Virus record (IMG/VR): IMGVR_UViG_3300000117_000142
Span: 1-29,872 of that record
Source: a virus
Length of the DNA stretch: 29,872 bases
Reading direction: 5' to 3' (one strand)
Below, piece after piece: positions 1,539-20,200 of the stretch. Below the pieces are notes generated by a model. The model was not told the DNA's origin, made no database searches, and was given only the letters and a program-made list of their open reading frames with translations. How positions within the stretch are numbered: position 1 is the stretch's first letter; each line of letters opens with the position of its first letter. Both the position numbers and the translations under genes were made by a program.

Positions 1539-2197
1539 TTATATTTACAAACGATGACGCTAAATATCGAAAGGGTAATTTCATACCTATGTATGGCGAC
1601 ATTACTATTCCACCGACAGCACCGGACACTACATTTATTCTTCACAACAAGTCCTTTAGCGAGGCTGATATTCTATACTGGGCACCGATTATATCCCACC
1701 GCTTAGTAGTGGTGGTTGACAAGGTACCCAAGTTAACCGATGCCAGTGAGGACTATGTTATAGTTGACCAAGCACTCAAGGTTAGGCGTGAGGATTATAG
1801 TCGCTCTATTCGTGCAGCGTTATGTTGGACTGACCGAGACAGGGCGTTGAGCGTACTTGCACCTATCCCACTCCCACTAATGAACGCCTTTGTCAAGGCT
1901 AATGTGGATAATATGGAGGTCGGTAGGCTCTTGGCGCAGTGCCGATATACTCTACATGATGACTACACTAGGGCGGTTATGGCCTACGGTATTTATCCTG
2001 TGTCTAATTTCAAGTGGCCGAAGAAGGCTAACAAGAATGACTATATACTGCCGAGCGATATGAGACAATCAGACAAGCACCTTGGAGTCATACTGAATAA
2101 TGACATCGTGGTTTCAAATGCTCTCCGTAGGGATGAGCCTAACTCACTGCCAAGTAGTTTGCCTAAACGAAAACAGAAGGCGATTGAATGGTTATGA
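1529..2197 (+). CDS. Candidate T4 gp62-like clamp-loader small subunit
   Basis: A 222-residue protein starting MGVVIFTNDD. The ATG at 1529 overlaps the upstream stop by 10 bp; a start at 1457 would overlap by 82 bp. It has no ATP-binding motifs. Around residues 125-175 is a helical section ending YGIYPVSNFKWPKK, and the C terminus is KQKAIEWL. As I recall the T4 gp62 family, its short proteins carry a helical section ending in basic residues and W-x-K-K, and T4 gp62 ends in a short hydrophobic EW-type tail. Gp62 is the non-ATPase partner of the AAA+ gp44, and the gene at 3207 codes for a clamp loader with a gp44-like P-loop. This call is inference from motif and context. Otherwise it is an unknown viral protein. 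Confidence 0.4.
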   Translation: MGVVIFTNDDAKYRKGNFIPMYGDITIPPTAPDTTFILHNKSFSEADILYWAPIISHRLVVVVDKVPKLTDASEDYVIVDQALKVRREDYSRSIRAALCWTDRDRALSVLAPIPLPLMNAFVKANVDNMEVGRLLAQCRYTLHDDYTRAVMAYGIYPVSNFKWPKKANKNDYILPSDMRQSDKHLGVILNNDIVVSNALRRDEPNSLPSSLPKRKQKAIEWL

Positions 2198-2553: not shown

Positions 2554-2738
2554 GTTTTGTAATAGGTATGTTCACGGCCTTTATTATCTATGCAATCATA
2601 TATGTGTACATTGATTCTCATACATGGGAGGAATGGAGTATAGGTAAATTAAGGAGTGGTTACTCCGGCGTTGATGGTGATGTTGGCAGCGAAACTAATA
2701 TGAGTGAAGCGGCCATGTTCATGAACATTAATGAATGA
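2550..2738 (+). CDS. Small membrane protein, unknown
   Basis: A 62-residue protein with an N-terminal transmembrane helix (FVIGMFTAFIIYAIIYVYI, residues 3-21) and a polar, mildly acidic C-terminal tail of about 40 residues. The ATG at 2550 overlaps the upstream TGA by 4 bp; the GTG three codons earlier is less likely. It probably sits in the host membrane with the tail in the cytoplasm. A holin-like or superinfection role is possible but nothing in the sequence shows it. Confidence 0.55.
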   Translation: MSFVIGMFTAFIIYAIIYVYIDSHTWEEWSIGKLRSGYSGVDGDVGSETNMSEAAMFMNINE

Positions 2739-3178
2739 GGGTCAAATACCAAACACTCATAAGACAGGCTGTGTCAGCCAATAATAACAACAAGCGAGTG
2801 CGTCGAGCGATAGTGGAAATACTACTAAAGCATGGGGCATGTACTCGGGAACAGGTAGCACAACACCTGCAAAATTACAAAGGTGTTAAGAATGTTCCTT
2901 CTCCCAACAGCCTTTCTGCTCTTATGTCGAAGAATCCTCAATGCGTTATTGTTGGCCGTGAGAAGGTCGAAATGACAAGTGGTATTAATACTCACCATAT
3001 GTTATTCGACATTGACCGTAAGGTAATTCAGACCAAGGATGATTTAATTTTGACAAGACCAATCTCGGTTATGACTCCTAGCGAAAGGCGCAAGGCTATA
3101 CAGTGTAAGTGCTGTGGTCGCACAAGAATAATGCCTAACGATTCCCCCGATACCTGTATCACTTGTCTCCGACAGTAA
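2735..3178 (+). CDS. Winged-helix protein with C-terminal zinc ribbon
   Basis: A 147-residue protein whose ATG overlaps the previous stop as ATGA. Residues 20-75 make a winged helix (RRAIVEILLKHGACTREQVAQHL, then SLSALMSKNPQCVIVGREKVEM), similar in layout to the proteins at 1-255 and 874-1143. After a linker, residues 122-145 hold a zinc ribbon with two CxxC knuckles (CKCC and CITC). The combination suggests a sequence-specific DNA- or RNA-polymerase-binding regulator. It is the last gene of the left operon; the TATA box of the clamp-loader unit begins right at its stop codon. Confidence 0.65.
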   Translation: MRVKYQTLIRQAVSANNNNKRVRRAIVEILLKHGACTREQVAQHLQNYKGVKNVPSPNSLSALMSKNPQCVIVGREKVEMTSGINTHHMLFDIDRKVIQTKDDLILTRPISVMTPSERRKAIQCKCCGRTRIMPNDSPDTCITCLRQ

Positions 3179-3192
3179 TATATACTGCCGAT
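3179..3192 (+). promoter_or_regulatory. Archaeal promoter P1 (TATA plus CCG element)
   Basis: TATATACTGCCGAT starts 28 nt before the ATG at 3207. That spacing puts the expected start site on or next to the start codon, so the clamp-loader mRNA should be leaderless. It is one of six near-identical elements in the window. Here the usual TGGCG reads TGCCG. Confidence 0.8.
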
Positions 3193-3206
3193 GACTATTG
3201 GAAACC

Positions 3207-4106
3207 ATGCGAGAAGTATGGGCGACGAAGCACCGACCAACACACCTTGATGGTTTCGAGGGACAGGAACACATTGTAAAGGAAATGGACTACATACTGT
3301 ATGGTAGTGCTTCAATGCAACACTACATATTTTATTCTCCCGAACCCGGAACAGGCAAGACATCTATGGCCCATATCTTAGCAAAGGGGTTAGGGTATGA
3401 ATTACATCAGTACAATGCTTCATCCAAGCGTCAGCGTGGTATCGAGTTTATCGAGGAAGAGTTGGCACCTATGACTAGGCTAGGTCAGTATGAAACCATA
3501 TACTTCCTAGATGAAGCAGACCAACTAACACCTGCTGCACAGTCAGCACTCAAGGGAGTGATTGAAGATGCACAAGGGTTCTTTATTCTTACATGTAATG
3601 ACCTAAGCAAGATTAGTCCTTGGCTTCAATCCCGTTGCCAAGTGCGAACCTTTGTACCTATTAATGATACAGATATGTTCACACGCCTATGTCATATTGA
3701 CGGCAAGGAAGGGTTTCAAAGTCCAACTAAGGATATTGATACCATAGTCGATACGAACCGTGGTGACTTGCGTAATGCAATTAATTCACTACAAGCGTAC
3801 CACTCTATCCCCGTAGCAGACCGTGAATCATTCTTAATTGGTTTAGGTCAACCGCCTGTGGATGCACAGATGATACTCACCCTTTGTTTGAAGGAACAGC
3901 AGGTTGAGGAAGCCGTCAAGTTGATGGGTTCTTCTAACCTTAGACAAACAATAGATGCCGTGTTTAGATACGGCATTGATTCTCCCGCCAAACCAGCCAG
4001 CAAATTAAAGTTGGTTGAGGCCGCAACGCAAGCCCGCCGTGATTTACTCATGGGTGTGGAAGCCCACTATGTAGTGTGGGACTTCTGTCGGAGGCTGGCA
4101 GCGTAA
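3207..4106 (+). CDS. Clamp loader AAA+ ATPase (RFC small subunit / T4 gp44-like)
   Basis: A 299-residue AAA+ ATPase that opens and loads the sliding clamp on primed DNA. It starts W-A-T-K-H-R-P, the usual clamp-loader N terminus, then GQEHI. Walker A is SPEPGTGKT (44-52), Walker B FLDEAD (100-105), sensor 1 lies near TCND (129-132) and the arginine-finger SRC motif is at 142-144. A C-terminal helical collar domain follows from about residue 215. The SPxPGTGKT loop resembles T4 gp44 more than the GPPGTGKT of cellular RFC. The ATG at 3207 is preferred to TTG at 3198, because it stands 28 nt from the TATA box and matches the family N terminus. The likely partners are the clamp at 6500 and possibly the protein at 1529. 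Confidence 0.93.
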   Translation: MREVWATKHRPTHLDGFEGQEHIVKEMDYILYGSASMQHYIFYSPEPGTGKTSMAHILAKGLGYELHQYNASSKRQRGIEFIEEELAPMTRLGQYETIYFLDEADQLTPAAQSALKGVIEDAQGFFILTCNDLSKISPWLQSRCQVRTFVPINDTDMFTRLCHIDGKEGFQSPTKDIDTIVDTNRGDLRNAINSLQAYHSIPVADRESFLIGLGQPPVDAQMILTLCLKEQQVEEAVKLMGSSNLRQTIDAVFRYGIDSPAKPASKLKLVEAATQARRDLLMGVEAHYVVWDFCRRLAA

Positions 4107-4110
4107 GGAC

Positions 4111-4124
4111 TATATACTGGCGAG
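4111..4124 (+). promoter_or_regulatory. Archaeal promoter P2 (TATATACTGGCGAG)
   Basis: TATATACTGGCGAG starts 26 nt before the ATG at 4137 and lies directly after the stop of the clamp-loader gene. It should drive the single-strand-binding, ATPase and sliding-clamp unit as a leaderless transcript. Confidence 0.85.
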
Positions 4125-4136
4125 ACAGACAACAAA

Positions 4137-5360
4137 ATGGAGGCAAAAAATATGGCAGATATTAACCAAATGATTGACCGAATAAGCAAGAACATAGGCG
4201 CAAGCGAGGAAACACTACGCTCGAGAATGGATACAGTCCTTTCCGAGAATAAGAACACATGGCTTGACGCTGGAAAGACAGAAGATGAGTGCGGACTCAA
4301 CGCTCTTAGAATCGCCGGTAGGCAGATTAAAAGTGAGAGTGAACGCCTAAAGCGTAGCGGTGCTACACTATACGAAGGTATGTTCATCAGCGTTCCACGC
4401 TACAAGGATTGGGCAGAACTAGCATACAAGAAGGCTGCTGGTACTCTTTCCCAAGGTATCGAGACTGTGACTGAATCACTTATCGAAGAGGGTAACATTA
4501 TTCTTTACGAGGATAATAACGACGGTACATTTACCAAGCGTTACAACCCATCCTTAGCGCAGAAAGCAAAGTTTGAATCCGGTGCAGCGACTACCGAGTT
4601 AGACTCTTTACCAAAGGGTACTTACGATAGTGGTAACGGTATTCATTTCCACCTAGTGTGGGATAAGAATAACCCAACATTCCCTTCCGGTGATAGTAAC
4701 TGGAAGTACGGCGCACCTAGACCACTCACTGAGAAGGACAGAACATGTCTATTCCTTGGTCGCCCTCGAGGTACTAAGGATGACATGCGTGTGTACTCAA
4801 TGAGGTTCAACGGCCAACTTGCCGAAGAACAGCACCCTACTTTCGTAGCAGGTACTATTGCTATGCGCCCTGCTCGTAATGGAGATGTAGCCTACGGTAA
4901 GGCTGGCGTATCAGTATTCAACCGTGATGATTCTATACAGGATTCTTTCAGTGACGCACCGGATACCTTGGTTGGCGGACTAGAGCAAATCAAGACTCTC
5001 GAAGGTGGTCTGCAAGACATAGAAGCGTATGTTGGCACACTATCCGACAAGGAACGCTGGGATGCTTTAGCAGCAGCCATCGTAGAAGTGATTCACATTG
5101 ACCCAAGGGACAATGGTGGTTACATTATTACTACCGGAGACTTGGATATTATGTCCACTGCCGGTACTGTTGACATCTATGTTACAGGTAAGCATGACTC
5201 ACTTGTTAACTTCGCTGTCGGTAGTTCACTGATGCTAGTAGGCTCTCCATACATGAGCCGTGATGGTGAGGCTAAACTTGCTGTCACAGGTTGGTGGTGT
5301 GCTGAATCTATGGCTGCCCCACAGGCAGTTGAGATGCCCGAAGAAGGGGGCTGGGACTGA
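4137..5360 (+). CDS. Candidate single-stranded DNA-binding protein (OB-fold, RPA-like)
   Basis: A 407-residue protein, first in the unit that also codes for the RecA-fold ATPase and sliding clamp. The N-terminal 80 residues are helical and charged. Residues about 80-400 are rich in beta-strands, with segments that fit OB folds (ATLYEGMFISVPRY near 76-89; TAGTVDIYVTGKH and LMLVGSPYM toward the end). The protein ends in a short acidic tail with Trp (EMPEEGGWD), a feature many single-strand-binding proteins use to recruit partners. I see no enzymatic motif. The OB-fold call rests on pattern and context, not on a confirmed match. ATG 4137 fits the leaderless promoter; ATG 4152 (MADINQ) is an alternative start. 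The stop overlaps the next ATG as TGATG. Confidence 0.55.
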   Translation: MEAKNMADINQMIDRISKNIGASEETLRSRMDTVLSENKNTWLDAGKTEDECGLNALRIAGRQIKSESERLKRSGATLYEGMFISVPRYKDWAELAYKKAAGTLSQGIETVTESLIEEGNIILYEDNNDGTFTKRYNPSLAQKAKFESGAATTELDSLPKGTYDSGNGIHFHLVWDKNNPTFPSGDSNWKYGAPRPLTEKDRTCLFLGRPRGTKDDMRVYSMRFNGQLAEEQHPTFVAGTIAMRPARNGDVAYGKAGVSVFNRDDSIQDSFSDAPDTLVGGLEQIKTLEGGLQDIEAYVGTLSDKERWDALAAAIVEVIHIDPRDNGGYIITTGDLDIMSTAGTVDIYVTGKHDSLVNFAVGSSLMLVGSPYMSRDGEAKLAVTGWWCAESMAAPQAVEMPEEGGWD

Positions 5361-6304
5361 TGGCGTGGGCGAAGCAAGAAGCCGCTTCGACTACGGCCCC
5401 TCGCCCCTCATTTGGGGTTGAGCATTACCGTCAGTTATTCGACTTGAAGCGTGAGTCGATGGCACCAATCCGTATGGCATTGGTAGGCAAGGAGAACACC
5501 GCTAAGACAGGGCTTGCTATTGATTTAGCGTTGGCTCACACAGATAAACAAGTAGTAGTTATCGACTGTGATAACTCGGCTCAGAATACTGTCGAGTATC
5601 TCATATCCACCGGGGCGGCTGAGGCTAGCCGTATTAGGGTTATTCCAATCATTGATGAGTTGGATGACGCTATGTGGAATGAGGACAATACTACTAACTG
5701 GATGGCAGTTGTTGACAAGATTGAATGGTTTGCATCCTTCTTGGCTGAGTCTACTGAAGAAGTTGGCGCAGTTATCTTCGACGGTGGTTCAACATTCCTC
5801 AAGTGGTGTGAGTTTGTCATGACAGATAGACTAATCCGCCGTGGAATTATTAATGACAGTGGTGATGGATTCAATCAGAAAGAATGGCGGGAGCGAAATA
5901 GTATTTACAAGGGTGTCTTTGACCGCTTGACAGCACTACCAATTCCGTACATCTTCTATACCTTCCATCTGAAGGACAATCAAGAGTACATGGATATTGG
6001 CGACGGTACCAAAGCACTGATGAAGGTTGGCGAGAAGGTTGAGTGGGCTAACGGAACACAAAGATTCGTGAGTCAGCAGATATTCCTAAGACGATACACT
6101 AAGAAAGGTGACAAGTCGGCGGGTGTTGAAGCAGACAAGGCTTTGAAAGACGGAGAGTTTGCTATACGAGCCAAAATCGAAGAGATGAAGGGTCGAAACA
6201 TGGAACACTTAGGTAAAACTTACGAGGTTCTCAATGTCGATGGTGGTAAAGTCACTTGGAGTGGGCTGCCTTTGGATTGGTCTAATCCGGTGGAGGAGTT
6301 GTAA
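5360..6304 (+). CDS. RecA-fold ATPase (Sak4/RadA-like recombinase core)
   Basis: A 314-residue P-loop ATPase with a RecA core and no added DNA-binding domain, as in phage Sak4-type single-strand annealing/recombination proteins. Walker A reads GKENTAKTG (43-51), where the usual Gly before Lys is Ala. Next come the strand VVVIDCD (65-71) and Walker B VIFDGG (138-143). YIFYTFHLKD is at the place of the sensor strand. A basic stretch (RRYTKKGDK) and a C-terminal beta section complete it. It probably acts in single-strand annealing, recombination-dependent replication or repair with the upstream single-strand binder. UvsX or RadA identity is less likely because of the short length and missing N-terminal domain. 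Confidence 0.7.
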   Translation: MAWAKQEAASTTAPRPSFGVEHYRQLFDLKRESMAPIRMALVGKENTAKTGLAIDLALAHTDKQVVVIDCDNSAQNTVEYLISTGAAEASRIRVIPIIDELDDAMWNEDNTTNWMAVVDKIEWFASFLAESTEEVGAVIFDGGSTFLKWCEFVMTDRLIRRGIINDSGDGFNQKEWRERNSIYKGVFDRLTALPIPYIFYTFHLKDNQEYMDIGDGTKALMKVGEKVEWANGTQRFVSQQIFLRRYTKKGDKSAGVEADKALKDGEFAIRAKIEEMKGRNMEHLGKTYEVLNVDGGKVTWSGLPLDWSNPVEEL

Positions 6305-6305
6305 G

Positions 6306-6500
6306 ATGAAAGAAGTGTCTCAACATGAAATCAAGATGCTGAAAGCAAAGATTGATAGACTGGAGAGGGATATTGATGATATGATGGGAAGGTTTGCTAT
6401 GGTCGGGAAACTGTGGTCTGCTGTAAAAGAATTACAGGACATGCGTAACCGACAGGGAGACTTCCTAGCACATGAATTATTGTACCGTGAGGTGAGTTGA
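6306..6500 (+). CDS. Small coiled-coil protein
   Basis: A 64-residue protein starting MKEVSQHEIKMLKAKIDRLER. The ATG at 6306 follows the previous stop by one base and has a strong ribosome site (GGAGGAG at 6292-6298). The first 30 residues have a heptad pattern of Leu/Ile/Met with charged residues between, predicting a coiled coil. It lies between the recombinase and clamp genes and overlaps the clamp start as TGATG, so it is probably a replication accessory or oligomerisation factor. No known family is recognised. Confidence 0.6.
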   Translation: MKEVSQHEIKMLKAKIDRLERDIDDMMGRFAMVGKLWSAVKELQDMRNRQGDFLAHELLYREVS

Positions 6501-7306
6501 TGAAAGTACCTAGAGATTTATTATTACAATTACTGGCAGTTACGAAGAGGGAACAGTCTATCAATAGCAAGACGCAGCCACAAGTTACTGGTTGTATCTT
6601 GTCACTTGGTGACAAAAGACTCTCGACTACAAGCATTGTAAAGGATGGGAAAACAAGTCTCTCTCGATTTTCATTTACATGTGATGATGACACACAGGAT
6701 AGCGTACCAGTACCCGACATTGACAGGATGTTAGGTGCCCTAAAATATCACGGGGAAGTTGTTACCCTATCCTACAACAAGGAAACCGCTAAGGTTTTGA
6801 TTAAGTCCAACAAGAAACAGACCACACTGGTAGGTGGTATGAAGGCCAAGGCGTTTGCCAACAGCCAACAGAACCTACTGGAGTGGCATAAGACCAGCAT
6901 CGAAAGAGCAAAGCAGGTTCAAGGTAGTGTGTATAAAATGAATAATGGGGAAACTCGTTCACCGTTTGCTACTATTAAAGTATCATCAGATGTTTTACAT
7001 GATGCTTTGAAATGCGATGCTATGAATGGGCAGAAACTTAATCGCTATTCTTTTGACATGAAGGGTGGAGAATTAATCGTAAGTGTTGGCGACCATTTCA
7101 AAGGGCTGACTGAGACTACTGTGGCCGATGGTTATAGTGACGATGACTTTACTGCTGTGTTTGAAGGTGGTTTAGAAAATATACTACGCTATTACAAAGG
7201 TGATGTTACTCTTAATTTCCTAGACTTCAAGGCTGAAGGACAGGGTACTAGATTGATTATGACCTTTGCTAATGGTGATTGGGTATTCCAAGCAGGGGTC
7301 TTGTGA
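6500..7306 (+). CDS. DNA polymerase sliding clamp (PCNA / gp45-like)
   Basis: A 268-residue protein of sliding-clamp length. It follows the clamp pattern of two repeated beta-alpha-beta domains joined by a linker near residue 125. The N terminus MKVPRDLLLQLLAVTKR is the first clamp helix. VTLSYNKETAKVLIKS (about 90-105) and LENILRYYKGDVTLNFLD (about 230-247) give the typical strand-helix-strand units. The end, GTRLIMTFANGDWVFQAGVL, resembles the closing strands of PCNA and T4 gp45. It encircles DNA and tethers the polymerase. The real start is ATG 6500 (TGATG overlap), not the TTG one codon before. The family is very divergent, so PCNA versus gp45 cannot be decided by eye. Confidence 0.75.
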   Translation: MKVPRDLLLQLLAVTKREQSINSKTQPQVTGCILSLGDKRLSTTSIVKDGKTSLSRFSFTCDDDTQDSVPVPDIDRMLGALKYHGEVVTLSYNKETAKVLIKSNKKQTTLVGGMKAKAFANSQQNLLEWHKTSIERAKQVQGSVYKMNNGETRSPFATIKVSSDVLHDALKCDAMNGQKLNRYSFDMKGGELIVSVGDHFKGLTETTVADGYSDDDFTAVFEGGLENILRYYKGDVTLNFLDFKAEGQGTRLIMTFANGDWVFQAGVL

Positions 7307-7641
7307 TGCCTAAGTTTTGGACTACTCCTAAAGGAGTTACCTTTCCTATGTTTGAGGAAGTTATCGGTAATAGTAATTATGAAGACTTCATTGACAAAAG
7401 GAAAAGGAATAAGCGTGTTAGGGGAATGCTAGCATGTATGGTTTATTTTGATATGGAAATAGGCGAAGAATACAAAACAGGTACTCTACGAGAGTACTGT
7501 CTAAAGTACAGCCCGACAGGTAACAGTGCAATAGTACTGTCAGCACAGAAGGTGGGTGCTTTGTTAACTGCTATGGTTAGACATGGCATACTATCTAGGC
7601 GTAGGTCGGGTAGCAAATCATATTATAGGAGATTGATATAA
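7306..7641 (+). CDS. Small basic winged-helix-like protein
   Basis: A 111-residue protein starting MPKFWTTPKG at the ATG that overlaps the clamp stop by one base. Residues 30-110 are basic (KRKRNKRVRG) and end in a typical winged-helix C terminus: QKVGALLTAMVRHGILSRRRSGSKSYYRRL. It is probably a DNA-binding protein co-expressed with the clamp. It is not close enough to the other winged-helix proteins of the window to call them paralogues. Confidence 0.6.
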   Translation: MPKFWTTPKGVTFPMFEEVIGNSNYEDFIDKRKRNKRVRGMLACMVYFDMEIGEEYKTGTLREYCLKYSPTGNSAIVLSAQKVGALLTAMVRHGILSRRRSGSKSYYRRLI

Positions 7642-7859
7642 TGAAATGTAGTAAATGTGGACACGAAGAAACGATTGAGAAGAAGGAAGATTACAAGTTT
7701 GCGACTTGGTTACACGAAGAATATGTGACTAAGCGTAGGTCTATGGTGGATATAGCGGCAGAACAAGGCGTTACCCCTATGACTATCAACAACTGGCTCA
7801 AGCGTTTTGACATCAAGACAAGAGGTCGTGGTGTCCGTTCCGGCTTATTTGACATATGA
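7641..7859 (+). CDS. Zinc-finger helix-turn-helix protein
   Basis: A 72-residue protein whose ATG overlaps the preceding TAA (TAATG). It starts with CSKCGHE, half of a zinc ribbon. Residues 20-65 then form a classical helix-turn-helix (WLHEEYV, MVDIAAEQGVTPMTINNWLKRFDI) of the homeodomain-like kind found at the ends of viral endonucleases and in small regulators. The basic tail (KTRGRG) suits DNA contact. As the last gene of the clamp unit it may regulate it or the following polymerase promoter; that is inference. Confidence 0.65.
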   Translation: MKCSKCGHEETIEKKEDYKFATWLHEEYVTKRRSMVDIAAEQGVTPMTINNWLKRFDIKTRGRGVRSGLFDI

Positions 7860-7876
7860 ATAATAGTGCAAACGCA

Positions 7877-7890
7877 TATATAGTGGCGAG
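7877..7890 (+). promoter_or_regulatory. Archaeal promoter P3 (TATATAGTGGCGAG)
   Basis: TATATAGTGGCGAG starts exactly 28 nt before the polymerase ATG at 7905, in a 45-bp gap between genes. No ribosome-binding site precedes the ATG, so the polymerase mRNA is expected to be leaderless. Confidence 0.85.
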
Positions 7891-7904
7891 GCATACTTAA
7901 TAGT

Positions 7905-10151
7905 ATGCAAGTAACACATAGCGGTGGTCGTAAGATTACCATACGAAGGCGTGACCCGGAGACTAAGGAGCGCATACAGGAAGTGATTGACACTTACCCG
8001 TATTGCTTTATGCCTACCGAAAAGGTCAATGATACATACGGATTGATTAGAGTTGAGCATGGGTACGAAGGTGTCTATGGTACGAAATTGACCAAGGTCT
8101 TTTTCAGAAATGAATATGACCGTAGGGAGTGGGTTCGCTCACACCACACATGGGAAGGTAACATATCCTTCGCTAACCAAGTTCTTAATGATAGACTGAA
8201 AGAGCAAGAGCCGTATCCTAACTACGAACATAGGGTATGGTATGTTGACGGCGAATGGAAGATGGGTTCTGAGGAGATAACTATACTCAGCGCACACGAC
8301 TCATACACTGGCAAGATGTACACATGGTTACAGCATCCCGATGTCGAGTCGGGGATGGTGACTAGCATACCTTGTAAGAATCACCCCGAGGGGCTTGAGG
8401 AAGTAGTGTTTGACCCACCTGCCAAGGCGTTTGCTAATGAGCGTCAACTACTGGCTGACTTTGCTGCTCATATGAAGAAGCAAGACCCCGACATACTGAC
8501 GGGCTGGTACTTTGTTGATGCCGATGTGTCAACAATCAGCACCCGTATGCGTAAGTTAGGTCTTGACCCTAGAAAAATGTCTCCTCTTAATCAACATAAC
8601 TACAAGTATGGTGTAACAGATTTGCGCTGGACACAGCCTATACCGGGCCGTAGTTGTATTGACTTGATGGTTGCATTCAAGAAGTTATGGACTATCAAGA
8701 ACGGTCAGTTAGCAGGGCAGAAGTTAGATGAAGTGGCGGACTTTGTACTCGGTGAGCGCAAGGTTGAGTTAGAGGATGGTCACGATACATACTACACTGA
8801 TATAGGTACATATGTTGACTATAACAGACAGGATGTGCGCTTACTTCCACGCCTTGATGAGTACCTAAATGTAACTAATTACTACACATCATTGCAGCAT
8901 CTAGTACAGTGTGACATAGAGACAGTACCTATGACTACTGCACCTGCTACCAGCCTGTTCATACAGGATGAAGAGTCCACAGGCCGTATTCCCGATGACC
9001 CACGCTTTAACAAGGTGGAGTACGAGGGTGCAGATGTACAAGAGCCGGAGCCGGGTCGCTATGAGAACATGGCAATCATGGACATTAAGGCCATGTATCA
9101 CTCCAATGTAAAGTTGCACAACATTTCGTGGGACACGCTGAATGATGGTGGTAAAGACTGTGGTAACGGTAGCAAGTTTTTACAGGATAAACCCGGTCTG
9201 CTTGGTAGGGTCATGGATAAGATGACAGTCAAGCGTAATGAATACAAGGCTCTAATGAAACAGGCTACTACTGATGCTGAAAAGCGCAAGTGGGATGCTA
9301 TGCAGTTTGCTACTAAATCTATGGTTGCTTCGCTGTATGGTGTTGCTGGTGATGCCAAATATGGTATGTATCACCCCGACATTGCTGCGGCTATCACATA
9401 CACTAGCAGACAGACACTATTCCGTCTGCGTGATGAGTGTAATGAGCGTGGTTATCCTGTGCGATATGGTCACACTGACTCTATCTTCTGCCAAGTACCA
9501 AGTCCCGAAGAAGGTATGCAATTGGTAGCCAAGATTAATGAGTCTATGGCACCTATTGAGACCGAGTTCGAGAAGTGGTGTGAGTCTATGATACTCAAGG
9601 CTAAGAATCGCTACGCTGGTAAGGTCACATGGACTGATGGTAAGTACCATGACCCCGACTACTATTACAAGGGGCTGGAATTGAAACAGGCTCGTATGCC
9701 CAAGGCCATGAAGAGTGCTATGGATGGTACTTTGCGTGGTATTCTCGACGGTAAAGACCGTGAGGACATTGATGACTATTTAATCGGCTTAATCAGTGAT
9801 GGTAATGCTGGTAAATTGGGTGAATCTCTACTGATGAAAGGTAGATTACGCAGACCATTACATAGATACAAGAGCATTAGTGGTGCTGTTGCCGGTGTAG
9901 TGTGGGCCAAGGAACATCTTGGCAAGCGGTATGAAGTTGATGACACCTTCCTCACTGCTATCGGTGCTGGCGGGCAGTATTATGCCTTCGACAATGTTGA
10001 TGAATTAGAAGGTGTTGCTAAGATTGATTGGCCCGAGATGACTGAGAGATTCATTGTCAACAAAGCATGCGCTATCTATGACTTGGTTAACTGGGACACT
10101 CAACCCCTATGGAACGCTCACCGTGGCATTGGTAATGTCAAGTGGTTATAA
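7905..10151 (+). CDS. polB: Family B DNA polymerase
   Basis: A 748-residue replicative polymerase with a proofreading exonuclease. Exo I is VDGEW near residue 114, Exo II GWYFVDAD near 200-207 and Exo III YNRQD near 306-310, so all three acidic exonuclease sites are present. Polymerase motif A is MDIKAMYHS (near 392-400), motif B KSMVASLYG (near 471-479), motif C YGHTDS (near 521-526) and the thumb motif KNRY near 567. In motif C the first Asp of the usual DTDS is His; the essential second Asp is kept. It is somewhat shorter than typical archaeal PolB enzymes. The C terminus (GNVKWL) may contact the sliding clamp. It has its own leaderless promoter. Confidence 0.96.
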   Translation: MQVTHSGGRKITIRRRDPETKERIQEVIDTYPYCFMPTEKVNDTYGLIRVEHGYEGVYGTKLTKVFFRNEYDRREWVRSHHTWEGNISFANQVLNDRLKEQEPYPNYEHRVWYVDGEWKMGSEEITILSAHDSYTGKMYTWLQHPDVESGMVTSIPCKNHPEGLEEVVFDPPAKAFANERQLLADFAAHMKKQDPDILTGWYFVDADVSTISTRMRKLGLDPRKMSPLNQHNYKYGVTDLRWTQPIPGRSCIDLMVAFKKLWTIKNGQLAGQKLDEVADFVLGERKVELEDGHDTYYTDIGTYVDYNRQDVRLLPRLDEYLNVTNYYTSLQHLVQCDIETVPMTTAPATSLFIQDEESTGRIPDDPRFNKVEYEGADVQEPEPGRYENMAIMDIKAMYHSNVKLHNISWDTLNDGGKDCGNGSKFLQDKPGLLGRVMDKMTVKRNEYKALMKQATTDAEKRKWDAMQFATKSMVASLYGVAGDAKYGMYHPDIAAAITYTSRQTLFRLRDECNERGYPVRYGHTDSIFCQVPSPEEGMQLVAKINESMAPIETEFEKWCESMILKAKNRYAGKVTWTDGKYHDPDYYYKGLELKQARMPKAMKSAMDGTLRGILDGKDREDIDDYLIGLISDGNAGKLGESLLMKGRLRRPLHRYKSISGAVAGVVWAKEHLGKRYEVDDTFLTAIGAGGQYYAFDNVDELEGVAKIDWPEMTERFIVNKACAIYDLVNWDTQPLWNAHRGIGNVKWL

Positions 10152-10261
10152 TTATACTCAGACGGGGTGCATTTAGTATTTGTTTTATACTCACAAACGC
10201 TATACTGCAATCCATTTTACTCATAGGTTAGACTATATAGTGGCGGGTGTAATGGTAGGGC
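10152..10261 (+). other. Intergenic region with promoter P4
   Basis: This 110-bp gap is the longest non-coding stretch between genes in the window. It is AT-rich and contains short T runs after the polymerase stop that could help termination, but no clear stem-loop by eye. Its last third holds promoter P4. Confidence 0.6.
10234..10247 (+). promoter_or_regulatory. Archaeal promoter P4 (TATATAGTGGCGGG)
   Basis: TATATAGTGGCGGG starts 28 nt before the ATG at 10262. Another ATG at 10252 is out of frame with the gene and only 18 nt from the box, so 10262 is the supported start. Confidence 0.82.
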
Positions 10262-10663
10262 ATGGAAGAAGAATACCATAACAACAGCGAGCCGGGTGAC
10301 GGCGATAACCTACTGGAATTACTACTGGATTTAAGTACAAGATGGGGCAAATTAGTCCCAACTCTCCCTTACGGAGCATTCAAAGACGATACTGATTCAG
10401 ATTTATTTTTAGATGTTTGGAGCGATTTTCAACATGCGCAACACTGGTTAGAATCCGGCGGTAATAGTTGGGAAGCCCTAAACGATACTATACGACAAGC
10501 AGGTATCATACTAATCAATCATGCTATTGACTGTCTCGAGTATTCGACATCGGGCGTAACAGCAAGTTTAGATAACATGATTGGCTTACTTTCTAATGAC
10601 GAATGGTATAAGGTTGATAATAACTTGAGGATGCAGTTAATGAGTTTTTACTCCAAAGTATAA
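10262..10663 (+). CDS. Hypothetical acidic protein, single-gene unit
   Basis: A 133-residue acidic protein that I do not recognise. It begins with a Glu/Asp/Asn-rich tail of about 16 residues, followed by predicted helices (NLLELLLDLSTRWGKLV; FLDVWSDFQHAQHWLES; IRQAGIILINHAIDCLEY). There are no metal-binding or nucleotide motifs. It has its own leaderless promoter and is followed by another, so it is transcribed as a separate unit between the polymerase and nuclease units. Its Trp- and acid-rich helical composition would suit a protein that binds other proteins, but this is only inference. Confidence 0.6.
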   Translation: MEEEYHNNSEPGDGDNLLELLLDLSTRWGKLVPTLPYGAFKDDTDSDLFLDVWSDFQHAQHWLESGGNSWEALNDTIRQAGIILINHAIDCLEYSTSGVTASLDNMIGLLSNDEWYKVDNNLRMQLMSFYSKV

Positions 10664-10673
10664 TCATAAAGCA

Positions 10674-10687
10674 TATATACTGGCGAG
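10674..10687 (+). promoter_or_regulatory. Archaeal promoter P5 (TATATACTGGCGAG)
   Basis: TATATACTGGCGAG starts 29 nt before the ATG at 10703 and only 11 nt after the previous stop. It should drive the zinc-ribbon, Lys-tail and Cas4-like nuclease genes. Confidence 0.85.
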
Positions 10688-10702
10688 ACTAGAGGGATAG
10701 AT

Positions 10703-10987
10703 ATGGCAGAAGAACAGAGACAGCCGAAAAAGATGACAACCGCACAATTGACCAAAGGATATTACGCTCTTGAACAGGCGTTCAATAACATAGCAGCCGC
10801 TATCGGTAACGATATGTCGCAGGTTATGAATGTCCTTTCGGGTATGCTTAGACACTTAGATTTACTACTAGATATTACATGTCCTTCATGTGGTACCGAA
10901 TTGAGTCACCCTAAGATGGATGGAGTACCGCTACCGGACAAGTGTCCGTCATGTCAAAGCGACTTGTATCCAAGCGAAGAAGAATGA
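10703..10987 (+). CDS. Helical protein with C-terminal zinc ribbon
   Basis: A 94-residue protein. Residues 10-55 are predicted amphipathic helices (LTKGYYALEQAFNNIAAAI; MSQVMNVLSGMLRHLDLLL). Residues 58-88 hold a zinc ribbon with CPSCG and CPSCQ knuckles, followed by an acidic tail (PSEEE). This resembles small viral transcription- or replication-associated zinc proteins, but no family is recognised. It is the first gene of the P5 unit and is followed 29 bp later by the next start. Confidence 0.65.
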   Translation: MAEEQRQPKKMTTAQLTKGYYALEQAFNNIAAAIGNDMSQVMNVLSGMLRHLDLLLDITCPSCGTELSHPKMDGVPLPDKCPSCQSDLYPSEEE

Positions 10988-11016
10988 TTATTAAACAAAC
11001 GGGGAGTGGAGTAAAT

Positions 11017-11328
11017 ATGGCACGAATACTTATTGTATCTGACGGCGAAGATGAAAAGATTTTCGCTGAAGCATTAGCAGAACATGGTCGCCGAGATGTT
11101 TATTGGGCTGTGGATAACACAGTTATGAATAAGCATAAGGCAGAAGCACTTGGAATTGACAGCAGATTAAATCTTGTTGGTTCTAAAGTGACCCATGATT
11201 CATTCGATAAAGTAATTGGACTATCCACCCCCGCACCTAAGAGCAAGAAGTCTTCTCCAAAGAAGACTCCAAAGGCTCTTGACAAAGAGGTTGAGGCGGT
11301 AGTTAATGAGTCCGAAAAAATACTCTAA
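11017..11328 (+). CDS. Hypothetical protein with Lys/Ser-rich C-terminal tail
   Basis: A 103-residue protein starting MARILIVSDGEDE. ATG 11017 is chosen because a purine-rich ribosome site (GGGGAGTGGAG, 11001-11011) precedes it and the first strand begins right there. ATG 10984, which overlaps the previous stop as ATGA, would add 11 residues. The first 70 residues suggest an alpha/beta fold (strand, acidic loop, helix, then VYWAVD), and residues 72-88 are basic and Pro/Ser/Lys-rich (KSKKSSPKKTPK), like a nucleic-acid-binding tail. I do not recognise a family; the catalytic glutamate pattern of a full Toprim domain is not complete. Confidence 0.6.
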   Translation: MARILIVSDGEDEKIFAEALAEHGRRDVYWAVDNTVMNKHKAEALGIDSRLNLVGSKVTHDSFDKVIGLSTPAPKSKKSSPKKTPKALDKEVEAVVNESEKIL

Positions 11329-12265
11329 GGAATGGTTCGCTATTGAAGGCCCGACGCATGGGCATTCTAACCCTATCAAGGCTAGTAGCAATGGATGGCC
11401 TGTAAGGCTATCTAAATCAGCATTTATGACCTATCTTGGTTGTCCCCGTAAGTATTGGTGGGGCAATGTGGCCGAGATACGCTCACCGCAGAATCATTTT
11501 ATGGCTCACGGCACAGCCGTACATAGAGCACTAGAAAACCTATATGGCAATTGGAAAAATGAAAATGGTGACAAGTTTGCAGACTTAGGTCTGATTGATT
11601 GGGAGGATGAATCCACCCACCACCCTCATTTACTTTGGAACAAAGACCAACAACAAATCTATTCTGACTCGCTAATTTCACTTTGGCAATTGGAAAATGA
11701 GAGATTAGAGCGTTGGGGACAGGAACATTTTGCTCCTGTTGAGTTTGAAATTAAGCATGTTGTCAACCATCCCGATTCTAATTTCCTATTGGTAGGTAAG
11801 ATTGACGGTGTACATAGACATCCCGACGGCGGACTTGTAATTACTGAATTGAAAACAGGGAAAGCCACCAAGGGTAAGATGACTAAGACTCGCAAGGAAT
11901 TATGTTTCTACCGACACATGTTATCCCTACTAGACTTCGATGAAGCGGTGTATTTTTACTACTTATTTCCCGAGGCTAGCAATACTGACCTGTATCTTGA
12001 GTTACTCAACAAGAAAGATACGGAGGTATGGTTAGGTGAGAAGCAGGGAATGGCTGTGTTAGAGAAGGTTTCTAAGCGTTCTGTGTCAGCCATGTACAAA
12101 TCGCTAGATAAAGCCATAGAGGGCATCAACGGCGACTTATGGGGTATGAAATGGAATGATTACTTCTGCACCGAGTGGTGTGAGTTCAATATGTCCTGTG
12201 AAGGACAGTTAGTTGGGCTTGATGAAGACCCCACACATTCATATACTGGCGGGACTGAGTGGTAA
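11306..12265 (+). CDS. Cas4/RecB-like PD-(D/E)XK exonuclease with Fe-S cluster
   Basis: A 319-residue nuclease. The order of motifs is that of Cas4/AddB-type enzymes. SKSAFMTYLGCPRKYWW holds the first cluster cysteine (C46), AHGTAVH (67-73) the metal-binding His, GKID (164-167) the Asp, and ELKTGK (181-186) the Glu-x-Lys. FYRH (201-204) lies near the QxxxY position, with Gln replaced. A C-x3-C-x5-C group (C288, C292, C298) completes a 4Fe-4S site. Such enzymes degrade or resect DNA ends during recombination. There is no Cas1/Cas2 nearby, so a CRISPR role is not supported. The start overlaps the previous gene by 23 bp. Its 3' end contains promoter P6 within codons. Confidence 0.88.
   Translation: MSPKKYSKEWFAIEGPTHGHSNPIKASSNGWPVRLSKSAFMTYLGCPRKYWWGNVAEIRSPQNHFMAHGTAVHRALENLYGNWKNENGDKFADLGLIDWEDESTHHPHLLWNKDQQQIYSDSLISLWQLENERLERWGQEHFAPVEFEIKHVVNHPDSNFLLVGKIDGVHRHPDGGLVITELKTGKATKGKMTKTRKELCFYRHMLSLLDFDEAVYFYYLFPEASNTDLYLELLNKKDTEVWLGEKQGMAVLEKVSKRSVSAMYKSLDKAIEGINGDLWGMKWNDYFCTEWCEFNMSCEGQLVGLDEDPTHSYTGGTEW
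12240..12253 (+). promoter_or_regulatory. Archaeal promoter P6 (CATATACTGGCGGG), inside a coding region
   Basis: CATATACTGGCGGG starts 28 nt before the ATG at 12268 and lies in the last codons of the nuclease gene, where it codes for SYTGG. It differs from the other promoters only in the first base. It should drive the zinc-ribbon, primase and XPF-type nuclease genes. Confidence 0.75.
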
Positions 12266-13474: not shown

Positions 13475-14209
13475 ATGCTGATAGTTGATGACCGAGAGAA
13501 CGACCTTTTAATTCACAAACTATACGCTTCTATGGGCCATCATGACGAAGGTGGTCATGTCAAGGTCAAAAGACTACCTTCTGCTGATTATATCATCGGA
13601 GAGATAGGGATAGAGGCTAAAGAGATTAATGACCTGTATCACAGTATCATGGGGCATGGGCGTTCTCGTACCATTGTAGGTCAATTGGTGGACTTACAGG
13701 AGTCATTCGAGCGACCTATGCTAGTAGTGTACGGTACTAAACTAAAACCGTACATTCCCGGCAACCCTAGACCTAATAGAGCGCAGATAGCGAAAGAGAT
13801 AAAAAAGATGAACGCTGTCATAAAAAAGTTTAAGCAAAACTTTATCATACAATTTCCAAACATACAATACATGGAGGTGTCCAGCATGGATGACATGGTT
13901 GATTGGCTGTCCTCAGTACATCACAACCTAAGATTACGCCGTAAGCCTACCAGTGAGCCAAAAGAATTACAGCGCAAGAGTAATCGTAAGGTGGACTTGC
14001 GTGTTAGAGTACTGTCTGCTATTGATGGCATCTCGGAGAGAGCAGCACATGATTTACTCAAAGAGTTCGGGTCAATCCCACGACTCTTACGCTCACGAAC
14101 CAGTCAGCGAAAACTCATGGAGATAGAAGGCGTTGGTAGAAAGAGAGCCAAGGCTATACTATCCCTGCGTGAACGCTATCCCGACCAACCTGACCATCAA
14201 TCTGAATAA
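13475..14209 (+). CDS. XPF/ERCC4-type structure-specific nuclease
   Basis: A 244-residue protein with the two-part layout of archaeal XPF/Mus81/Hef nucleases. The N-terminal nuclease domain has VDDRE (4-8), SADYIIG (36-42) and EAKEINDLYHSI (47-58), corresponding to GDx(n)ERKx3D. Metal-binding D38, E47, K49 and D53 are kept, but the Arg of ERK is Ala. The C-terminal part (about 172-232) holds two helix-hairpin-helix motifs (IDGISERAAHDLLKEFG; IEGVGRKRAKAI). It should cut branched or flap DNA during replication or recombination. It is the last gene of the plus-strand module; its stop overlaps the last codons of the convergent tail gene by 13 bp. Confidence 0.9.
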   Translation: MLIVDDRENDLLIHKLYASMGHHDEGGHVKVKRLPSADYIIGEIGIEAKEINDLYHSIMGHGRSRTIVGQLVDLQESFERPMLVVYGTKLKPYIPGNPRPNRAQIAKEIKKMNAVIKKFKQNFIIQFPNIQYMEVSSMDDMVDWLSSVHHNLRLRRKPTSEPKELQRKSNRKVDLRVRVLSAIDGISERAAHDLLKEFGSIPRLLRSRTSQRKLMEIEGVGRKRAKAILSLRERYPDQPDHQSE

Positions 14210-17200
14210 CTCATTTGGTTGGATTGACTACTACCAGCCACAGAACGGGAGTCAAAGCCCACCTGTATATTATGTAGTGTCACACCACTATACTGTGCAG
14301 TATCGGGGGCTAAACCAGCAACACGACTAATTTTAATTTCAATAGTGTTGTTTGGTATATTCAGTCCCGCCAGTGTTCCACTAAACAGTGAGACAGAAGC
14401 ATTGGTACCTACTGCGAGAAGTGCTGTTGTATTTGCAGTAGCACCTGTTTCTACACACTTTACCTCTACATCTAAAGAAGCAACGCCGCTTGCGGCACCT
14501 AGTGTGTATCTTCCCGTTATATTTGTTTGTGTACTGTTGCTATCCGCAGGTACCCTAACTACCGTTGTGAACTCGTTATATGCTTGAGCCGCATCCGTAG
14601 CACCTGCAAAGGACATACCGTTGTTTGTCATAACTGCGTCACCCGAGGAGGCTGTGATGAATGAATCAACACCTTCTACACCCGAAGTTTTCGCTGGAGG
14701 CTTTGCGGGTTTCTTTTGACCTAGTACTGCGAAATTACCACCTAAAAGACTGTCGTTATTGAAGTCCATACTGCCTTTTATTTTATTGCTTAGGCCACTG
14801 CTTAGTATGTTACTACTAATAGTCTTGGAAGAATTGCTAGATAGGTTAGTCCCATCTACATTAGGCCCAGTACCTACTTGTGTCATTGGATTAAAATCTA
14901 CACCAGTACCAGTACCAGTTTGAATACCCATAGAACCGCTAGTATTCCAAGAGCCAGCGACAGGGGTACCGCCGAACCCACTCCAGTCAAATGTACCGGA
15001 GCCTTGGGGTTTAGATTTACCACCATCTCCTCTACCACCACTTGTACCTGTACCAGTTCCGGGTGTTTGAGTACCACCTTTGTTAGTTGTTGGTAATAAT
15101 AGAGATGCGAAGTTTTGAATACTTCTGCTAACATCTCTCTCTAATTGAAGTTTTACTTGTTGTCTTTGCGCTCCCGAGGCTGACCAATTTATCTGTTTTA
15201 TGCCCATGACTTCATTGTTTAACCCTAAAGCCGTGTCACGGTAAGTGACTTGGGTTCCGGGTACAAAGTTTATGTCATCACAAATATGTAAGCGTGGGGC
15301 ATACCATTCAGACCTGCGACCCATATAATTTACAGAAGCGGGGTTCCATTTCCTCATCCCAAGTGGGAATAGGCTATCTGCGTTGATTGCCATAGTTGAT
15401 GAGCCACCGTATTCATTAGCGTTAGCCAAGTGACCGGTACCACACCTATTTTTTGCGACTGACAAAAGATAGTCGTAGTTCACCGATAACACAATTCTTT
15501 CCCCACCTTCCATATCAGCCCAATATGTACTAGGAATCTCTATCTCATAATATCCATTTGAATCAACCGATACGCTGCTACTGCTTCTAGCAGTTGCTAC
15601 GAAATCACTATCTGTCCAATCATAATCAATTAGTTTTATATTAAATACTGGGTTTATGGTAGTAGGGGCATATTCGGTAACGGTTCCGTCACCTACTTCG
15701 ATAGCGAATCTCAACTTGCCGTCTGCATTTATGTTTGAACCACTAGGGGTTTTGGCTGTTGTTTTTGGCATGTTTCGTGGTATATGTACTACTTGTAGAG
15801 CATAACTTAGAGACGCTGCACCATACCAATAATACATATCACTGTATGGTTCTTGTACATACGGGGTTGTGAAATCAGAACCCCCATCCCTACCGTTAAG
15901 AGCAGACACCATACCGGGGAATAGATTACCTCCCCATATACTTGTCCACGCCCACGCTTTATCTTCTACATACGAGCCGCCAGTACCAAATACTCTTGGG
16001 ATAGTCCTAGATTGGTCGGCAATGTAACCATACCTTCCTCCGTTGACCATCATATCACCAAGCCCGGACATTGTGTAATTGTTATCAAAGTTTAGTATTT
16101 CTGCACTTATTGATAATGGTGCGCTCTTATTCTTTTCGTATTCCGCCTTTGCCACTGCAAGTGCTTCTGCATTTGTGGTTACAGATGGCATGTCGAGTAT
16201 CTCCCAGCGTGGGGTTTGGCCCAAACTAGGTGCGGGATAGTCAACAAACGCCCCACCTGCGCCGTAAAACACCCTAACATTGCTGATTTGCTTATTGGAC
16301 TGAGTATTAAGTGTGGAAACCATAAGGTTGGTCTCGTCAAACTCTAAGTTTAGATTGTAGTTTGGTCTAAAGGAAGGTTTAGAATCACGCCCCATCAACC
16401 ATGAAAAGACTTGTCTAACTCCATTGCCACCCAAACCAGCAAGTGATTGCGAACTAGAGTATATTGTAGTTAGTGTGGTGTTTCTACAATCATTCACTCC
16501 ACCGAAATCATCTACTGAGTTAGTTAATCTCCATCTACCAAAAGAACCCGACCCCGCTACTGATGTAGTGTTGGGTATAGTGAAGGTATCGTCGGCTGGT
16601 ATAGCAGTAATCACTGCTGTATCAGTCTTACCCAATAGGCTAATTCTCTCGCTATCTATGATTGTCACCGTGTCTCCTACTGACAGCCCGTGTGGGGTTG
16701 ACGCAGTGAATGTAGATGAACCGCTACTAGGGGCGGTTATGGCTGTTAGCCTCCCACCTCTACCCGGAGCGTTACAATCAGCAAATACCGTAGCCATATC
16801 CTTAGTAACTGGTACTGTTCCTATATCGTGCATACCATACAGTCTTGATTGAGTTAACCAATTCTTAGTTAAACAGTCTAAATAAGACATTCTTAATTTC
16901 TCACTGTCCCACCATGTACCACTTGCTTTGTTTTCAATAAACCCATTGAGTGCCATAAGCAGACGCATAGGAAATACATTAGCCAATCCGCCATACACAA
17001 GAGCGTCTGTGTATGAGTTCTCATTATCCGGGTCTAACGAAATACCTACCAAGGCTTCATTTGAAGGAGATGGGATACTACCAACAGAACCAGCGTAGGT
17101 TAAAATATACGCACCGTTAGTGGTACTATACCCTGTACCATCCCATTCCCCAGCAGTAGTAGTATTTTTAACGGGCATACCTAGTGATAACAAAGTCCTT

Positions 17201-20200
17201 AGTTTCCTTGAGTTCAAAGCATCTAATTTACCAGTACCCGCAGTAATACTAACTCCGGCATCAATAGCAATCGTCAATGTGGTTGTTGTAGCGTATGGTA
17301 CTGCTGGGTTAACTGCATTTACATGCGCTATTGTATAGTCACCATCTATGCTAGGAGTAGTTGTGCTGGCCCTAATGGTAATTTTATGACCGGCTCTAAA
17401 GGTTTCACCTATTCTATAACCTACACCCGAAACATCTGTAATTTTTACAAACCCTGCCCCATCTGCGACAAATGAAACCGATTTATCTTTAAAAGCATAA
17501 GCCGAAGTATCCCAAGAACCACTGTATGTGGCAAAGTGGAAAATTGTTTTTTTGTCCTCAGACCGGATTTGCCCTACTTGGGTGTCAATTGGAGGTATTA
17601 TGCTCGCATCAGTTAACTGTATAATCTTATCACCTAGTTTTATTTCAGAATCCAAGGTGGTGACATCATTTAGTAGATACTTGTAGTTACCATTCCATGA
17701 ACTGCTGTTCACAATGTTTTCGTATGTAGTAGGTGCCTTGGCCCAATAGTTGTCAATCAAAACAGGAAACCCTTCAGTCTCAACTAAATAGTCCCCTATC
17801 TCTCTTCGACCACCCGATGCCTGTCCTGTTCTACCGTTGTTACTAACAGTATTTAGGTTGAAAAACTTTGAAGAATCTATAATAACAAACGCACCCGCCT
17901 TGTCCTCCCAATTGTGATATTTACTGTCTGACTCGCTATCAGAACCACCCGCCACACTGCTCCATGTGTTGCCTGTTATTGGGTCAATAGCAGCGTCTAT
18001 CTCCCAAATATCTACATCTTCTCCTATTTTCAAATCAACAAATCTTTCTCTATCTTCTGTCGCTGATATGTTAGTGTCAGCAATTCCTAAAGACAGTTCA
18101 TAGTTACCGGAGTACGGGGACATTAGACCAAATTGGTTTTTCCTATAAGAGTTATCTGCATCGGCACTGCCATCATTACGCATGTCCGACCATAAAATCC
18201 AAATGTGTTTATAGTCATTAGTGTCAAGATTTCTTATGGCGAAATTGGAACCCGAAGCGTGGCTGCGTTGGAAAAAGTTAGTAGTAGGTAGATTGAGAAC
18301 GGTCTGACCGTACTTTAATGTAATTCCCGTATATTCAGAATTGACCCTGTAATCGTTATTGTATCCTGCACTAACTAAACTAGCGTTAGTGTGATTAGGT
18401 GTTTCGAGAAGGGTATATGCCGTAGTTGGGCTTACTACTCCGGTTGGGCTATTAGTTTCTCCAATCCACTCGAACTTACCATGTCTACCATATTGAGTAT
18501 CTAACTTTCTCATCTTATACACGAAATAATCAACACCATTAACTGTTAATACAGTGCTATAATTGTTGGCGGTTGCTGGTGTTAATTCATTTACATTTAA
18601 ACCATAAGTACCGTTCACAAATGAATCCGAAGCACCTTCGATTGATACAGTGCCATGTGGCAGTGTGCGTGTGTTAGTGAGGGTCACATCTTGCCAATTT
18701 GTATATGCAGTTTGTGGCACAAGTAGTAGCATTCTATACCTAATACCCGGGGATGCACCAAAGGTATTGTTTAATCCCCATACGCTGCGAGCGTCATAGT
18801 TTCCGGCATTAGGGTCGGCGATAAACCGTTCCTCATACACTCTAACAATACAATTAGTAGCAGTGTTGGTAGTACTTATTCCACTATAAACTCCCGAATC
18901 AACAAACCCGTCGTCGTCAACAAACTCAATACTACCGGCAGAACCAAGACCTTTGGCCACTCCATTTATTGTTAGTGTAGAGTCTCCGGGGGTAAAGTTT
19001 GCCGCAATGGTGCTTATACTACTATACTTATTACGGTTACTACCGTATGACCTTTGGTCTCTCTCTACTATATTTTGGGGGTCTTGGCCAATCTTTGAAA
19101 ACAAGTGCATAAACCACGGCGATGATTTTAGGTCTTTCATCCATCTCGAGTGAATACTACGGTATGCGGTATCAGCAGTGGCATGCCCACCTGTAATTGC
19201 ATCATCCCAATTGTCATAAGCCTCATTAGGCCCATTTATATCTTCTCCTAAATACATCTGTATTGGGTGTGCCGACCTGTTTCTCATTCTGCTGTCTAGG
19301 TGCCATTTCCATGTACCTGTCCCGTCTTGTACTTCATTGAAACCTAAGTCTTGATTTGCAGATTCTAATAGGGATGTGCCGAAGTAATAAGAGTTTAGTT
19401 CGTTCTGTGCCTCGCTTCTATTATACGCCACCTGTGTAGTACTGTCGCCTTCGCCACCTTGCCCCATTTCCCATGTAGGAATCTGCGTATTAAGATTGGC
19501 GAAATAGTCACTTGCACTAATTTTTATTGTCGGGGTTCTTCGGTTAGCGTCTTGAGAGTATGACATTCCTGTTACTCCCCCTCTCCATAGCGGCCTATCA
19601 ATACGATTATGGAACATTAGTAAAGACCATTCGGAATAAGATGATTGGTTGAAGAATGAAAGTAACTCTAGTTGAGCGTCATCATCTACAACGGTGATGG
19701 ACAAGGATGATGAAGAGTTGTTCCCCATAGTACAGTCAAAGTCAATTACGGGTGGCATTTCAGTAGTGCTTAGGGGATAATCATTTAGTGGCCTAACCAA
19801 ACCTACCCTATCAATTAAAACCGTTACTTTTTTTGCGGCCTTTTTTGCATCTAATTCCCAGCCATACATATCAGCCGCTTGGAACTTGACTCCGGCTGAT
19901 GTATTTCCGATAGCATTGCCAGTTGATACAGACGCACCGTTCTTTACTATGTCGTATGTACCTGCTGTATAATCCATTATGAAATCGTAATCATCCCACA
20001 AAGAGTCCATGCTAGTTCCGGCGTATGTTGTCATTTCTTGAAACGCAATAGGTGTTATTTCATAATCAATAGCGGCATGACTATATCCGGTATCCCCACC
20101 AACGACAGATGCAAACGCTGTGCCTTCACAGCCAATGCGAAGTCTAAGTCTTGCGTTGGTTGTGTCTACTGCCATAGGACAAATACGAATAGTAAATATA

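Follow-up and report, generated by a model that had tools for sequence, protein, structure and literature searches.

A near-invariant G/C-rich element directly behind the TATA box of promoters in one clade of probable marine archaeal tailed viruses

Genes of the window and the promoter element

The window, a stretch of 29,872 nucleotides, makes up most of a 30,605-base IMG/VR virus record and probably belongs to a 60-kb tailed virus of marine archaea; the records of its clade are ~60 kb long. Its + strand carries a replication block with genes for an RFC-like protein, a 402-aa conserved protein, an ATPase with a weak PHROG match to a Sak4-like ssDNA annealing protein, PolB, a PD-(D/E)XK nuclease and an ERCC4 nuclease, and its - strand carries large structural genes, one of which matches tail tube. 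For genes that have no Pfam match, the labels SSB, PCNA and primase are positional and not proven: the primase reading is based on resemblance to a magrovirus-like ORF together with gene order, and the clamp gene gave no Pfam match. No tRNA genes were found, and orf133 is present solely in this record. Just before PolB, at 7641-7859, lies a gene for a 72-aa zinc-ribbon/HTH protein that resembles HNH-associated HTH families and occurs in clade and outer-clade genomes. The non-coding stretch between PolB and orf133 (10152-10233) contains the repeated words TATACTCA/TATACTGCA.

An earlier note on this DNA had described six promoter elements, each with a fixed TG(G/C)CG(A/G) directly behind a TATA box. 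We find TATATA-(C/G)TG(G/C)CG(A/G) at all six (Table 1): the pattern TATATASTGSCGR matches exactly at 3179, 4111, 7877, 10234 and 10674, and the site at 12240, which lies inside the 3' end of the upstream PD-(D/E)XK gene (11306-12265), differs by the one mismatch that gives it a CATATA box. The fixed block itself also stands, with the addition that relatives take A as well as G or C at its middle base. A seventh exact site, overlooked in that note, begins at 2042. When up to two mismatches are allowed, the window holds 10 matches to TATATASTGSCGR compared with 4.3 expected.

Table 1. Coordinates of promoter elements, adjoining genes and comparison sites
Feature	Position	Strand	Remarks
Seventh element, TATATACTGCCGA	2042..2054	+	inside ORF 1457-2197; exact match
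orf147, candidate promoter factor	2735..3178	+	start probably GTG 2771; winged helix and C-terminal zinc ribbon (model)
Clamp-loader unit promoter, TATATACTGCCGA	3179..3191	+	ATG 3207; kept in orthologous RFC promoters, weaker in G005 and G011
RFC small-subunit-like AAA ATPase	3207..4106	+	PF00004, E=1.8e-13
Promoter of 4152 unit, TATATACTGGCGA	4111..4123	+	pattern match; orthologous promoters compared
GGAGG, Shine-Dalgarno-like	4139..4143	+	precedes ATG 4152; read from sequence
402-aa conserved protein	4152..5360	+	without Pfam or PHROG match; SSB-like label from position in replication block alone
PolB promoter, TATATAGTGGCGA	7877..7889	+	ATG 7905; TA-S-TG-V-CG kept before PolB in ~20 viral loci
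Family B DNA polymerase (PolB)	7905..10151	+	PF00136, E=3.7e-30
orf133 promoter, TATATAGTGGCGG	10234..10246	+	ATG 10262; pattern match
94-aa zinc-ribbon gene promoter, TATATACTGGCGA	10674..10686	+	ATG 10703; 11 orthologous promoters scored, block broken in G011
Promoter of Zn60 gene 12268 and next gene 12410, CATATACTGGCGG	12240..12252	+	pattern match; orthologous promoters compared
Late control region	G002 ~19390-19500	-	before first late gene
Late control region	G014 ~9230-9340	+	before first late gene
Magrovirus-like promoter examples	G081 88893, 86374, 73096	-	exact-core search

Counted from the first T of TATATA, the ATG follows after 28 nt (3207), 26 (4137), 28 (7905), 28 (10262), 29 (10703) and 28 (12268), and the TATA box thereby falls within the ~24-30 nt before the predicted start that are typical of archaeal BRE/TATA promoters. 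In nearly all orthologous promoters the distance from the fifth base of TATATA to the ATG is 24-25 nt, so most starts look leaderless if initiation occurs at the usual distance. The exception is the second unit, where in relatives a purine-rich, SD-like stretch precedes an ATG at +36 to +38. Since ATG 4152 behind GGAGG, 41 nt from the first T of its TATATA, matches these relatives, ATG 4137 is probably not the start, and from the sequence comparison this unit is probably better read as SD-led from 4152. The claim that all six units are leaderless therefore holds for the general geometry and probably fails for this one unit.

Conservation within the clade, inside a gene and on the late operon

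A search with PolB returned 45 viral loci. Among those with at least ~61% identity, TA-(C/G)TG-V-CG is mostly kept directly before PolB, with L019 and L021 as the clear exceptions, and the downstream block stays even where the TATA half has become TAAGTA, TAAATA or TATAAA. At identities of ~50% or less, the block is absent upstream of PolB. Unseeded EM on 295 upstream regions from ten records recovered RnAAGnnTTATATASTGGCGA in ~43 regions, and word counts, which are independent of EM, rank TATATACTG, TATAGTGGC and ATACTGACG at the top among k-mers. Across 11 genomes we compared 56 orthologous early promoters, which are related by descent and thus do not represent 56 independent events. Their post-TATA letters are conserved at T 0.95, G 1.00, C 0.82 and G 0.93, about as strongly as the TATA letters at 0.73-0.98, and the flanks drop to background.

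A comparison that does not depend on orthology, covering 471 kb in ten related records, ties the block to gene starts: of 27 TATATA words with STGVCG behind them, 15 are correctly spaced from a gene start, whereas of 150 lacking the block 4 are (Fisher p = 2e-11). Similarly, TASTGVCGR precedes 22 starts, while 300 random orderings of the block averaged 0.40 and never exceeded 8, and the top-scoring orderings are near-copies of the block itself. The element had also been thought to stand in place of a BRE, which is not supported: an A-rich BRE is conserved as well, at five to six nt upstream of TATA (A 0.59/0.73 in the 56 promoters and 0.91/0.73 in PolB promoters), and the block thus supplements an otherwise normal promoter. 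Conservation of block and spacing in related viral genomes, which had been set beforehand as a test of the proposal, is what we observe, and the element is confirmed as a stronger feature than the earlier note claimed.

The sites at 2042 and 12240 lie inside genes, which is the one point in favour of reading the conservation as coincidental or coding. We give that reading practically no credence, as it is ruled out by the permutation, Fisher, spacing and synonymous-constraint tests and is also contradicted by intergenic conservation in relatives of 66-86% identity. At 2042 the codons TAT ATA CTG/GTG CCG AGC have a synonymous-codon identity of ~0.95 compared with a mean of 0.47 (203 codons, 11 relatives), and this run is the top of 204 runs in its gene. 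In G008 and G009 the CTG is changed to GTG, which is exactly the C/G choice of the motif. The synonymous-codon test rejects a coding coincidence, and the 2042 site is under DNA-level selection. Our best guess from its position is that it is a putative promoter for the genes at 2188 (GGCT-like), 2541 and 2735, with a leader of ~118 nt.

The element had been proposed to coordinate the early genes, but it is not confined to them, since the first late operon of relatives has the same block. The first gene of the structural operon, which encodes a 461-aa protein upstream of terminase, has a GAAACATTGATAAGGTGGCG-like promoter in eight genomes; these 8 late promoters carry TTGATAAGGTGGCG-like sites in which TG and CG are each conserved at 100%, with the ATG 25-26 nt on. 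An operon switch restricted to early genes is rejected by this finding. Upstream of the first late gene lies a single-copy region of ~100 bp, conserved across genomes, that contains CGCCAAAAA, ACAGCCAAnCACCATGCG and ATAGGGACAGCCAAgCACCATGCG blocks and two T-runs, followed by TTGATAAGGTGGCG (Table 1). Within it, CGCCAAAAA is an inverted TGGCG and may function in activation, in packaging or as part of a divergent promoter.

Limits of the clade and promoters of magrovirus-like records

Searching IMG/VR for the exact pattern with its spacing gave 57 stretches compared with 21 for a scrambled control whose word composition differs from that of the real pattern. Homologues of the window's replication genes are carried by 12 of the 57, and two exact hits in one stretch (L115, L120, L149) occur solely within this clade; the remaining matches are single hits without homology, 45 compared with 21 in the scrambled control. 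As judged from these sequence searches, the block is specific to one virus clade. EM on the outer clades G015-G019 gave no shared post-TATA block of this type. Single examples seen there by eye, without statistics, are GTTTATAGGCGGA (G017) and TATATACCGGAG (G015/16).

Three records of 91-109 kb (G081/G082/G083, L219-L233) were recovered through an alignment of TFB. They encode PolB, ERCC4, a thermosome, TFB and a convergent ~2,200-aa protein and are magrovirus-like by content (compare PMC10768690). The window's motif was not found in these three records, even at one mismatch. Their gene order is similar to the clade's, and they have another extended promoter (TTTAAGAACCATCAACAATAA), with the form TCCTTTAAGAACC(A/G)(T/A)CA(A/G)CAATAA before early-strand genes. 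The exact word TTTAAGAACC occurs in 20 copies compared with 0-1 simulated, and each record has 4-9 exact cores, which precede mostly SD-led starts by 35-48 nt. This promoter, TCCTTTAAGAACCATCAACAATAA, resembles that of the clade in having a TATA-like box and a conserved downstream block before early-strand genes, but it differs in sequence, in the SD-led starts 35-48 nt downstream and in belonging to viruses that encode TFB. Magrovirales encode a replisome of PolB, primase, clamp and clamp loader together with a convergent structural module, and in the window PolB, RFC and PD-(D/E)XK/ERCC4 nucleases are supported. Magroviruses are 90-100 kb long and have TFB and thermosome genes, whereas the records of the clade are ~60 kb and no TFB was found in 19 records searched.

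The literature assigns named magroviruses to Poseidoniales, and the host of the window's clade would be the same if the similar gene order, the only guide here, is followed. Among GTDB contigs, the PolB alignment matched just one, a distant contig of Bathyarchaeota at 29%, and no phage record exceeded 60% identity.

Candidate readers of the block

To our knowledge, the promoters of uncultured marine archaea and of their viruses are essentially unmapped. The reading we favour, with confidence about evenly balanced, is that the core promoter of the clade consists of an A-rich BRE, a TATA box and a lineage-specific downstream element, and that this element is read by a lineage-specific factor or a host regulator. 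The third element, (C/G)TG(G/C/A)CG(A/G), lies directly behind TATA at ~-22 to -16 from the inferred start, and it would be read in the region occupied by the first cyclin repeat of TFB and by TFE-like winged helices. Host RNA polymerase with TBP and TFB would initiate at the ATG or 1-2 nt away, and the block would contribute positively to the initiation complex, labelling promoters as viral and allowing initiation even from weak TATA boxes (TTAAGTA, TTGATAAG). That related viruses have different blocks points to a lineage-specific promoter code. Because the blocks of related lineages differ at the same place, a reader specific to the virus lineage, for which orf147 is the best candidate, or a host regulator appears likelier than unaided host basal factors.

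The candidate readers that we considered are host TFB and orf147. No gene for a virus-encoded TFB or TBP was found in the 19 records searched, which rejects these two as readers and speaks for host TFB. The host factor is also suggested by the position of the block: the first cyclin repeat (HTH1) of TFB contacts DNA downstream of TATA, and the block, if the start is at the ATG, likewise occupies the BREdown position immediately behind TATA (PMC8131849). Its occurrence on early and late promoters alike is what a basal element would give. It is accordingly possible, though we lean against it, that the first cyclin repeat of the host's TFB prefers STGVCG as BREdown and that the virus copies strong host promoters. 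This is opposed by the different block of the magrovirus-like records, the named relatives of which the literature places with Poseidoniales, by the restriction of exact multi-copy IMG/VR hits to this clade and by the Sulfolobus BREdown, which is described as A/T-rich, whereas the clade block is G/C-rich and near-invariant (PMC8131849). An operator for a virus- or host-coded repressor or activator that overlaps the TATA edge, regulatory rather than basal and comparable to the Aca8-type regulation of rudivirus early genes, seems to us improbable. SIRV2 early genes do share extended regulatory sequences around TATA (PMC11065993), and small HTH and zinc-ribbon proteins are encoded near the elements, but the block is non-palindromic, no such protein is tied to it, and its early, intragenic and late occurrence is unexpected for a temporal switch.

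Returning to the lineage-specific reader, orf147 is among the most conserved early proteins and, G019 apart, occurs in all clade and outer-clade records that cover the region, with identities of 77-90% in most clade members, 55-64% in G006, G011 and G013 and 40-51% in the outer clades; the magrovirus-like records gave no significant match. No Pfam or PHROG family was found for it, and TFIIE_alpha is included in this negative Pfam result. Its AlphaFold model (pLDDT 87.8) has the secondary structure of a winged helix followed by a four-cysteine zinc ribbon, the arrangement of TFE/TFIIE-alpha, and C124, C127, C141 and C144 are invariant. Human TFIIE is rank 1 in Foldseek (E=9.5e-4) with a poor superposition (rmsd 12.9, TM 0.35), whereas VIA-align gave generic winged helices with no TFIIE among the 50 matches listed, the best neighbour being the solved marine environmental protein 2od5 (Z 8.6). 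With hhalign, the probability is 35% both for archaeal TFE, aligned over 110 collinear columns, and for TFB, whose alignment, however, spans 22 zinc-ribbon columns. We consider orf147 weakly TFE-like by these model comparisons and a candidate, not a demonstrated, factor. In the sequences orf147 and the block are linked only by co-occurrence, and outer clades that have other blocks encode orf147 too. It seems unlikely to us that orf147 is the virus's own TFE-like factor, reading the block and reprogramming host polymerase onto viral promoters, with magroviruses using a virus TFB and another block instead. Any virus-encoded reader also faces the objection that immediate-early promoters must work before it is synthesized, unless it is packaged or merely boosts them.

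A near-invariant G/C-rich post-TATA element that is swapped between related lineages offers a direct way to study how promoters are marked by viruses of archaea and yields a short list of candidate factors; in this virus group it is also a signature by which contigs and gene starts can be assigned. In the passage of PMC5569661 that cites Kessler 2004, SIRV1 and SIRV2 are described as having a virus-specific GTC downstream of TATA on the majority of their promoters. Set against that description, the clade likewise has a short virus-specific motif behind TATA on most viral promoters in addition to BRE and TATA, but here it is STGVCGR, a longer block, in another virus class and an unrelated host lineage. 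The class I and class II intergenic repeats of halovirus HF2 are, similarly, extended promoters that recur in a tailed archaeal virus and are conserved in its relatives, with TATA at ~-26, whereas those repeats are 58 and 29 bp long, have motifs around TATA and the TSS and form separate early and late classes, and here one short core element serves both (PMC8707807).

A further observation concerns another archaeal tailed-virus record, G003, where positions 13910-16432 (L054) encode an 840-aa protein with amidoligase and glutamine-amidotransferase domains.
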